From assembly GCA_903869345.1 (NCBI GenBank), contig CAIPYM010000014.1, positions 1 to 35,265 of the forward strand: a stretch of 35,265 nucleotides of DNA, given 5' to 3'. This DNA comes from an uncultured Pseudomonadota bacterium (GTDB lineage Bacteria > Pseudomonadota > Alphaproteobacteria > UBA9219). This document shows positions 1,515 through 18,543 of the stretch, one piece after another. How positions within the stretch are numbered: position 1 is the stretch's first letter; every line of letters begins with the position of its first letter. The notes below the pieces were generated by a model. It was not told the DNA's origin. It saw only the letters and a list, made by a program, of their open reading frames with translations, and searched no databases. A program made the position numbers and the translations under genes.

Positions 1515-1651
1515 ATACTTGGGTATGGCACACGATGACCTTTTTCTCAGCCCTGTTCTCTCGACCGTCATCCCGGCGAAAGCCGGGAACCAGTGCCATT
1601 TTTCTGGGACGTCTGAACCATGGACCCCGGCTTTCGCCGGGGTGACGGTCC
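1515..1651 (+). repeat. Dispersed palindromic repeat element, copy A
   Basis: It begins with ATACTTGGGTATGGCACACG, runs through a ~25-base spacer, then a palindromic arm (CCGTCATCCCGGCGAAAGCC at 1565), a ~40-base middle and the inverted arm (ACCCCGGCTTTCGCCGGGGT). The leader matches copy D inside prmC almost base for base, and the middle matches copy B. The right-hand end seen in B and D is missing here. It lies between the receiver gene and the Sel1 gene, so it could also act as a transcript-end hairpin for the receiver gene. Confidence 0.85.
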
Positions 1652-1689
1652 TTTTTGAGACTCTGTCCTCGCTCTTTCAAATCGCTCGG

Positions 1690-15422: not shown

Positions 15423-15453
15423 GGCTTTGGGTGAGGAGTTAATACCGCGAAAC

Positions 15454-15618
15454 GGCACAGGATGACCTTCTCTCTCGGTTCCGTCCCCTTTTGCCGTCAT
15501 CCCGGCGAAAGCCGGGAGCCAGAGCCGTTTTTCCGTGACAGCTGAACCAGGAAGCCCGACTTTCGTCGGGACGACGAGGAGATGCGATAAAGATAAAAAG
15601 GGGAATCCATGCTGTGCT
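15454..15618 (+). repeat. Dispersed palindromic repeat element, copy B (most complete)
   Basis: The ends are imperfect inverted repeats: GCACAGGAT at 15455 and ATGCTGTGC at 15609 (8 of 9 pair). Inside are a leader matching copies A and D (GGCACAGGATGACC), the palindromic arm GTCATCCCGGCGAAAGCCGG, a middle shared with copy A, the inverted arm, and a right flank GAGGAGATGCGA also found in copy D. This layout is that of a small non-coding, MITE-like element. It lies between ftsZ and ETF-QO and could form a strong hairpin in the ftsZ transcript. Confidence 0.82.
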
Positions 15619-15661
15619 CCAGGAAAGATCGTTGTGAGCCCCTACAACCATGTGCCGTCTC

Positions 15662-17427: not shown

Positions 17428-18543
17428 TCAAGAAAGAGTCGTCACCCCGGCGAAAGCCGGGGTCCCGAGGGATTCTTGACAGCTCTGCCCAACGTCTTGA
17501 GGTCCCGGCCTTCGCCGGGACGACGACAAAGAGGATCCCGTCCCTGACGGTCCGCGTTCTCCCCCGACACAGCGCTCGATTCCGGCAAGGTCCTGGGCGC
17601 GGAAAGTGTGGAGGAATCCTGCCGCGGCCAGAAGGGATTCGACCGCTTGCGCTTGGCCCTCACCGACCTCCAACATCACAAACCCGCCCGGTTTCAAAAG
17701 CCGTCTCACGTCAGGAAGCAGGGCGCGGTAAGCGTCGAGTCCGTCCGGGCCCCCATCCAACGCCGCTAAGGGATCGTAAAGCCGCACGTCGGGCATGAGC
17801 CCCGGAATCACAGACGTAGGGATGTACGGTGGGTTGCTGATCACGAGATCAAAGGGTTTTTTCAAGCCTTCACCCCAGGTGCCCACGCGGAAACGGGCCC
17901 TTTTGGACAGCTCCAACGCGCGAGCGTTTTGGCGAGCTTGGGCCACGGCGCGTGGCGCGATGTCCACCCCCAGCCCGATCGCCTCAGACCATGCATGGAG
18001 AATCGCCAACAGCAAACACCCCGAGCCCGTGCCAAGGTCCAGGATGCGAGGGGGCGAAGAACCTCTCCTGCGGCACGGCATAGATTCTCTCGTATCGTCG
18101 CATCTCCTCCCCGTCACCCCGGCTTTTGCCGGGATGACGGTGGAGAGGGCCGGGTTGAGAAAACGGTCATCGTGTGCCGTGCCAAAGTATCCGGCAGTTT
18201 TCAAGCGCTTGAGGACCTCTTCCACCAACGTCTCGCTGTCGGGGCGAGGATCGAGTGTGGCCTCGTTGAGGGCGAACGGCAGACCGCTAAACTCGCGTTC
18301 GCCGAGGATGCGTGCAACGGGTTCGTAGGCTTCGCGCCTTTGCAAAAGAGCCTCGAAGGATTCCGACTCAAAGGGCGTGAGGGTTCGCGCAGACTGTGCA
18401 ATCAGATCCGCGCGGGTGAGGTTCAGAACATGCGCCAGCAAAAGCCTTGCATCCACGCTGGCGCTTTCGATTCCCTTGGTGTTCAGGCGATGGGTGGCAG
18501 CGCGAAGGGTGGCCTCCAGACGCGGGGACGGCCGGGGAGTCAT
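17428..18543 (-). CDS. prmC: Release-factor glutamine methyltransferase PrmC with repeat-derived insert and tail
   Basis: 371 residues against the usual ~280-290. The N-terminal helical domain runs to about 112 (ending in PDSETLVEEVLKRL). Residues about 117-162 come from repeat copy D. The SAM-dependent catalytic domain then starts at ILDLGTGSGC (167-176), with catalytic NPPY at 237-240. The native end is probably near 330 (DLAGIERCVGGER); residues 331-371 are encoded by repeat copy C. Removing both gives a normal length. PrmC methylates the Gln of the GGQ motif in RF1/RF2 and is near-essential. Its ATG overlaps the rsmB stop (ATGA), so translation is coupled. Whether the insert is tolerated as a surface loop, or weakens the enzyme, cannot be told. 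Confidence 0.93.
   Translation of the reverse strand: MTPRPSPRLEATLRAATHRLNTKGIESASVDARLLLAHVLNLTRADLIAQSARTLTPFESESFEALLQRREAYEPVARILGEREFSGLPFALNEATLDPRPDSETLVEEVLKRLKTAGYFGTAHDDRFLNPALSTVIPAKAGVTGRRCDDTRESMPCRRRGSSPPRILDLGTGSGCLLLAILHAWSEAIGLGVDIAPRAVAQARQNARALELSKRARFRVGTWGEGLKKPFDLVISNPPYIPTSVIPGLMPDVRLYDPLAALDGGPDGLDAYRALLPDVRRLLKPGGFVMLEVGEGQAQAVESLLAAAGFLHTFRAQDLAGIERCVGGERGPSGTGSSLSSSRRRPGPQDVGQSCQESLGTPAFAGVTTLS
17440..17526 (+). repeat. Dispersed palindromic repeat, copy C, forming the 3' end of prmC
   Basis: Two GC-rich arms (GTCACCCCGGCGAAAGCCGG at 17441 and CCCGGCCTTCGCCGGGACGA near 17504) flank a ~40-base middle. It lies inside prmC and encodes most of its last 40 residues; the prmC stop lies about a dozen bases beyond the element. 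The hairpin also falls between two convergent genes and may stop transcription from both sides, although it lacks a T-run. Confidence 0.82.
18072..18183 (-). repeat. Dispersed palindromic repeat, copy D, in-frame inside prmC
   Basis: It is bounded by a perfect 9-bp inverted repeat, GGCACGGCA at 18072-18080 and TGCCGTGCC at 18175-18183. Read on the minus strand, its leader (GGCACACGATGACC, then TTTTCTC) matches copy A, and its right flank (GAGGAGATGCGA, then GAATC-ATGC-GTGC) matches copy B. Similarity continues a few bases outside both ends. The centre is a single collapsed palindrome, ATCCCGGCAAAAGCCGGGGT. The prmC reading frame stays open throughout. Confidence 0.85.

Follow-up and report, generated by a model that had tools for sequence, protein, structure and literature searches.

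Short palindromic repeats that lie in frame within genes for working proteins are best known from Rickettsia, in which the Rickettsia palindromic elements (RPEs) are repeats of 100-150 bp (Ogata 2000, 2002, cited in PMC10969869 and PMC3767692). For RPE-4, RPE-6 and RPE-7 it was not decided whether they mark insertion hot spots or share a common origin (PMC3767692), and RPE-4 and RPE-6 of R. conorii have been assigned to the CGTC superfamily of REPs (PMC3733652). The CGTC-1 REPs occur in alphaproteobacteria in pairs, and their intragenic copies and the tolerance of linkers have already been discussed (Di Nocera 2013, PMC3733652); the same work places a REP at about the same site of recB in two Xanthomonas species, describes composite arrangements of REPs within longer palindromes in a few species, and does not have prmC among the genes named in its main text. 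Bacterial MITEs, reviewed in PMC10969869 and including the QMITEs of Coxiella (PMC5896051), form the third system with which we compared our locus. Palindromes in frame within genes are thus already known from RPEs and REPs, and in our literature search no paper on palindromic elements within genes mentioned prmC or hemK. The present case stands apart in how often unrelated families have independently hit a single loop; what is new here is the repeated, independent insertion of such families at a single loop of one translation enzyme.

The DNA analyzed (the window) is a stretch of 35,265 nucleotides from an uncultured alphaproteobacterium of the order UBA9219. A preliminary description made from its letters had proposed that a palindromic repeat of mobile type sits in frame inside prmC, which encodes the release factor glutamine methyltransferase, and both the reading frame, open over 371 amino acids and running through the repeat without a stop, and the presence of a repeat family in the genome bear this out. 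The identity of the product as PrmC was established with the curated model TIGR03534 (250 bits, above its cut-off of 199), its best fold match being the E. coli PrmC-RF1 complex 2b3t (E = 1e-25). The Pfam domains flank the insert (PrmC_N at residues 13-81, methyltransferase from residue 166), the catalytic motif NPPY is intact at residues 237-240, as had been claimed, and a single PrmC was detected in the genome. The repeat lengthens the protein in frame by about 45 residues, and this claim too was upheld by the PrmC proteins of relatives (59 genomes), whose matches to the window protein end at residue 112-116 and restart at 160-166; E. coli PrmC has two residues only at this position. In an AlphaFold2 model (45 rows) with a mean pLDDT of 90, both domains lie near 97 and residues 119-163 drop to about 46-56, and the insert is predicted to be a disordered loop that lies clear of the active site and runs from helix 103-116 to the opening strand of the methyltransferase fold (residues 166-170). 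In-frame insertion with intact gene features makes the repeat appear RPE-like, in agreement with the preliminary description. We say that the element works like an RPE, not that it is a member of one of the ten RPE families of Rickettsia.

Table 1. Coordinates in the window of prmC, the repeat within it and its two related copies.
Feature	Position	Strand	Details
prmC reading frame, release factor glutamine methyltransferase	17428..18543	-	371 aa
Mobile repeat between perfect 9-bp ends	18072..18183	-	112 bp; encodes PrmC residues 121-157
Element including imperfect 18-bp terminal repeats	18064..18191	-	~128 bp; ends fit consensus TATMCTGCGGCACGGCA of other copies
Left terminal inverted repeat	18175..18183	-	GGCACGGCA
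Right terminal inverted repeat	18072..18080	+	GGCACGGCA
Inner palindrome	18112..18139	.	CGTCACCCCGGCTTTTGCCGGGATGACG, 28 bp; single CGTC-type REP remaining of the usual pair, core shortened
Catalytic motif NPPY, intact	17824..17835	-	residues 237-240
Second repeat in prmC, CGTC-type REP pair	17438..17526	-	encodes C-terminal tail past conserved PrmC end
Intergenic copy	1515..1654	+	left end and two-REP core, different right end
Intergenic full-length copy	15452..15622	+	downstream of ftsZ-like gene

The perfect 9-bp inverted repeat GGCACGGCA, spanning exactly 112 bp overall, and the inner palindrome CGTCACCCCGGCTTTTGCCGGGATGACG, both noted in the preliminary description, were confirmed (Table 1). 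The true ends lie further out than this core, at about 18064-18191, as imperfect 18-bp repeats, which in the prmC copy match at 12 of 18 positions, nine of them in one run. An alignment of ten copies with both ends revealed shared ends close to TATMCTGCGGCACGGCA and arms in which CTTTTT and AAAAAGGAGAATCCATGC are frequent, and the core was found to be swapped among copies, being mostly a pair of CGTC-type REPs and in others a GTCATCGCGAGCGGAGCGAAGCGATCC palindrome. The REP core reads CGTC-ATCCCGGC-GAAA-GCCGGGAT-CCA in the intergenic copies and CGTC-ATCCCGGC-AAAA-GCCGGGGT, with one G.T pair, in the prmC copy. The terminal CGTC, the 8-bp stem with A/T at its first two positions and the 4-base loop are those of CGTC-1 REPs; the unpaired CCA tail and the pairing of REPs are present in the full-length copies and lost from the prmC copy, which retains both ends with one REP only, half of its core being gone, and which is an internally shortened form of the element. 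Unlike the CGTC-1 REPs, the REP here forms the centre of a larger element that has terminal repeats of its own. It follows the preliminary description in being GC-rich, and this together with its MITE-like frame and swapped core sets it apart from RPEs; the core is not foreign to RPEs as had been supposed, since it fits the CGTC-1 type and RPE-4 and RPE-6 were assigned to the CGTC superfamily (PMC3733652).

MITEs were defined for our purposes by terminal inverted repeats of 15-30 bp, a non-coding element of 70-300 bp and several copies. Imperfect ends of 17-18 bp occur in several copies, with 106-189 bp between the 9-bp ends, and dispersed copies, the lack of a transposase and occasional in-frame fusion likewise recall bacterial MITEs; in contrast to these, neither a parent insertion sequence nor a clear target-site duplication was found for the element. 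It thus appears MITE-like, its terminal inverted repeats enclosing a palindromic core that can be exchanged. The ends are TA-like but degenerate in several copies, and with a simple 2-bp target duplication the net length would not be a multiple of three; therefore, no duplication is claimed. Among the genomes compared there was no empty allele of a close strain, in which the insertion event and a target-site duplication would be visible. Internal deletion as the sole cause of the readable frame was also rejected, because several full-length copies have at least one open frame and loss of core sequence is thus not needed for readability.

The preliminary description had named three copies and suggested a BLAST comparison of the element with its own genome. 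This comparison (60 pieces), made against the 1.74-Mb draft assembly of 76 contigs, showed the family to be larger, with about 20 sequences that match the left or the right half well, nearly all intergenic, in addition to the in-frame copy in prmC. The best other copies reached E = 9e-19 and 6e-18, which excludes a chance origin of the repeat, and the nearest matches of the left half of the prmC copy lie within the same genome. The copies named at 1515 and 15454 are indeed related to that in prmC (86% over 73 bp for 1515-1587; 77% for 15452-15516), although their structures differ from it and from each other (Table 1). Copies beyond those first listed exist, and relatives lack the PrmC residues in question, so that neither of the two outcomes named as refuting the preliminary description was observed. 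The full element was absent from the genomes of relatives, a few of which contain the inner palindrome alone; Rfam gave zero matches within the window, and the element was unmatched in a plasmid collection. Of 94 distinct repeat places in the genome, each taken with its flanks, two lay within a frame that stayed open and had coding-like codons to the left and the right. These clear genes are prmC and an RNase E/G gene (L178 / G000:C76:10844-12067, minus strand), each hit in frame, and the latter carries an insert of about 115 residues composed of several palindromic repeats that the RNase E/G of relatives is without. An RlmN frame (L231, G000:C53:42300-43900) starts in REP-derived sequence, and its N-terminus may be repeat-derived, its start codon being unsure.

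In the stretches around repeats in the genome, no transposase with the ends of this element was found. The genome contains an IS630-type DDE remnant (L096 1014-1325) and two Y1 (IS200/IS605-like) transposases (L096, L097 centre) as possible helpers. The borders of the IS630-type remnant are without the ends of the element, and a link to RAYT or IS200-type transposases was rejected since the two Y1 hits have hairpins of their own and no element ends.

Across the order, a long PrmC insert was present at the identical alignment column in 8 of about 28 genomes with a full PrmC, namely the window genome and G005, G008, G009, G010, G016, G019 and G032. Because prmC was examined in the own genome only after the window had pointed there, that genome is left out of the count, which then becomes 7 of 27. 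In an alignment of 30 PrmC proteins the eight inserts, adding 15-82 residues, all fell at this one column, and no insert of at least 8 residues was seen at any other internal column; their start positions inside the linker differ by many residues. All eight have an open coding frame, stops interrupt 15 of the 16 remaining forward frames, and thus the inserts have been kept readable. When a joined query of the inserts was compared with the seven genomes, and the window insert with its own genome by BLAST, seven of the eight recurred elsewhere in their own genomes as differing repeat families, G005 having about 100 pieces and G009 and G032 dozens each (these totals include matches to other inserts of the joined query, for which the individual rows are the better guide). 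The insert of G010 was not repeated in its genome. It is a further difference from RPEs that in this order different families have hit the same PrmC loop. When the insert columns were left out of the tree, the eight bearers required eight changes (7-8 over bootstraps), and the tree has weak branches, the firm ones alone forcing at least three. G019 seems to have two PrmC genes (G019:C38 and G019:C89), one with and one without an insert, and contamination is possible.

A class-wide sample of 385 genomes was also searched, of which the 150 best matches and 43 of the weakest were read. None of the 150 best had an insert, and four of the 43 carried extra residues at the PrmC junction, three of these being low-complexity or charged linkers and one unmistakably a CGTC-type REP pair. 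The latter, from a genome (G202; L187, G202:C19) that belongs to a different family of the class, makes a ninth case. The contigs of two genomes, G011 and G367, stop at the junction and may reflect further repeats. Inserts of other kinds were noted in two PrmCs, a long Ser/Thr/Asn repeat in that of G106:C5 (L191) and about 70 residues before NPPY in that of G197:C138 (L190). Repeats have also entered other genes of the order, with about 165 in-frame residues of tandem palindromic repeats in KdtA and about 38 or more in-frame repeat residues in BirA of G005 (L242, L253), and the repeat family of the G032 prmC insert in TrmB of that genome (L264). Therefore, prmC is not the only target, and the insert in an enzyme of translation termination, correctly recognized in the preliminary description, is no one-off. 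In the samples from relatives prmC is one target among several, yet the sole one seen hit repeatedly; the in-gene repeat rate rests on one genome and samples of four others.

Taken together, it is highly probable that a stop-free, in-frame, MITE-like palindromic element with a CGTC-type REP core has been retained in a tolerant loop of PrmC, and that the repeats of relatives were retained independently. A short non-autonomous palindromic element would have landed in prmC in the stretch that leads from the helix following the PRPDSET motif to strand 1 of the methyltransferase domain, and the insertion would have persisted as one that was in frame, free of stops and placed in a loop tolerating extra residues, the insert being translated and the enzyme remaining the only PrmC detected for the cell. 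In relatives, various palindromic repeats, each dispersed through the genome that carries it, would have been kept independently in the same loop. Such a pattern would result from a filter, in that several kinds of repeats move or are copied and only in-frame, open insertions in tolerant loops survive in important genes. We infer that mobility is provided by a transposase acting in trans, that the insert is translated into a working enzyme and that the peptide is neutral; the repeat would on this basis be termed selfish. Tolerance alone does not explain why the PrmC loop was chosen over many other loops of many proteins. The contrast between eight inserts at a single column among about 28 genomes and, in the own genome, only two of the 94 repeat places lying in genes would suit inserts that are useful, a flexible linker or a coding RNA hairpin tuning the amount, folding or release factor binding of PrmC and being selected repeatedly at the site. 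Strong structure is seen in several inserts (z -4 to -8; G005, G009, G016, G032 and G202), and in TrmB of G032 the hit again lies directly ahead of strand 1 of the methyltransferase fold; however, the inserts of G008, G010 and G019 have no unusual hairpin, the length, sequence and linker position of the inserts vary freely, and most relatives manage without one, so that we regard this explanation as unlikely. It is similarly doubtful that the loop is favoured, not merely tolerant, with palindromic inserts altering release factor methylation and being repeatedly selected in the order, an effect that could act through linker length or through a coding-region hairpin slowing the ribosome between the two domains.

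The identical column in all bearers could also be explained by one ancestral insertion in the order that later diverged or was overwritten by recombination with local repeats, as discussed for RPE-4, RPE-6 and RPE-7, and the study of R. japonica leaves common origin or hot spot undecided (PMC3767692). We consider this improbable here, since the bearers are scattered over the tree, the sister pairs G009/G015 and G032/G026 differ, the starts within the linker lie apart, and the inserts are unalike and match repeats of their own genomes; this dissimilarity argues for separate insertion events. With dispersed families differing per genome and eight changes on the tree, the recurrence at the PrmC loop therefore supports a hot spot over one old insert that diverged. 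That the insert is skipped at the RNA level or by ribosome hopping, or that the prmC copy is an assembly artefact, is very improbable: strong inverted repeats, a draft genome and the two contigs of relatives ending at the junction are compatible with it, but the consistently open coding frame among mostly closed ones speaks against it, and an in-frame artefact in eight genomes is not expected. Independent retention in one tolerant loop would provide a natural series of insertions of different selfish repeats in a conserved translation enzyme, by which the question of hot spots or a single ancient, diverged insert, discussed for Rickettsia, becomes testable. The series would show how mobile DNA can lengthen proteins without breaking them, and it calls for caution, as extra PrmC residues in this order, or protein families built on them, may be repeat DNA.

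At its other end, the prmC frame of the window does not close where the conserved part of PrmC ends but continues for about 40 codons through the second repeat, and the last ~30 residues are encoded by its CGTC-type REP pair (window 17428-17530, minus strand).
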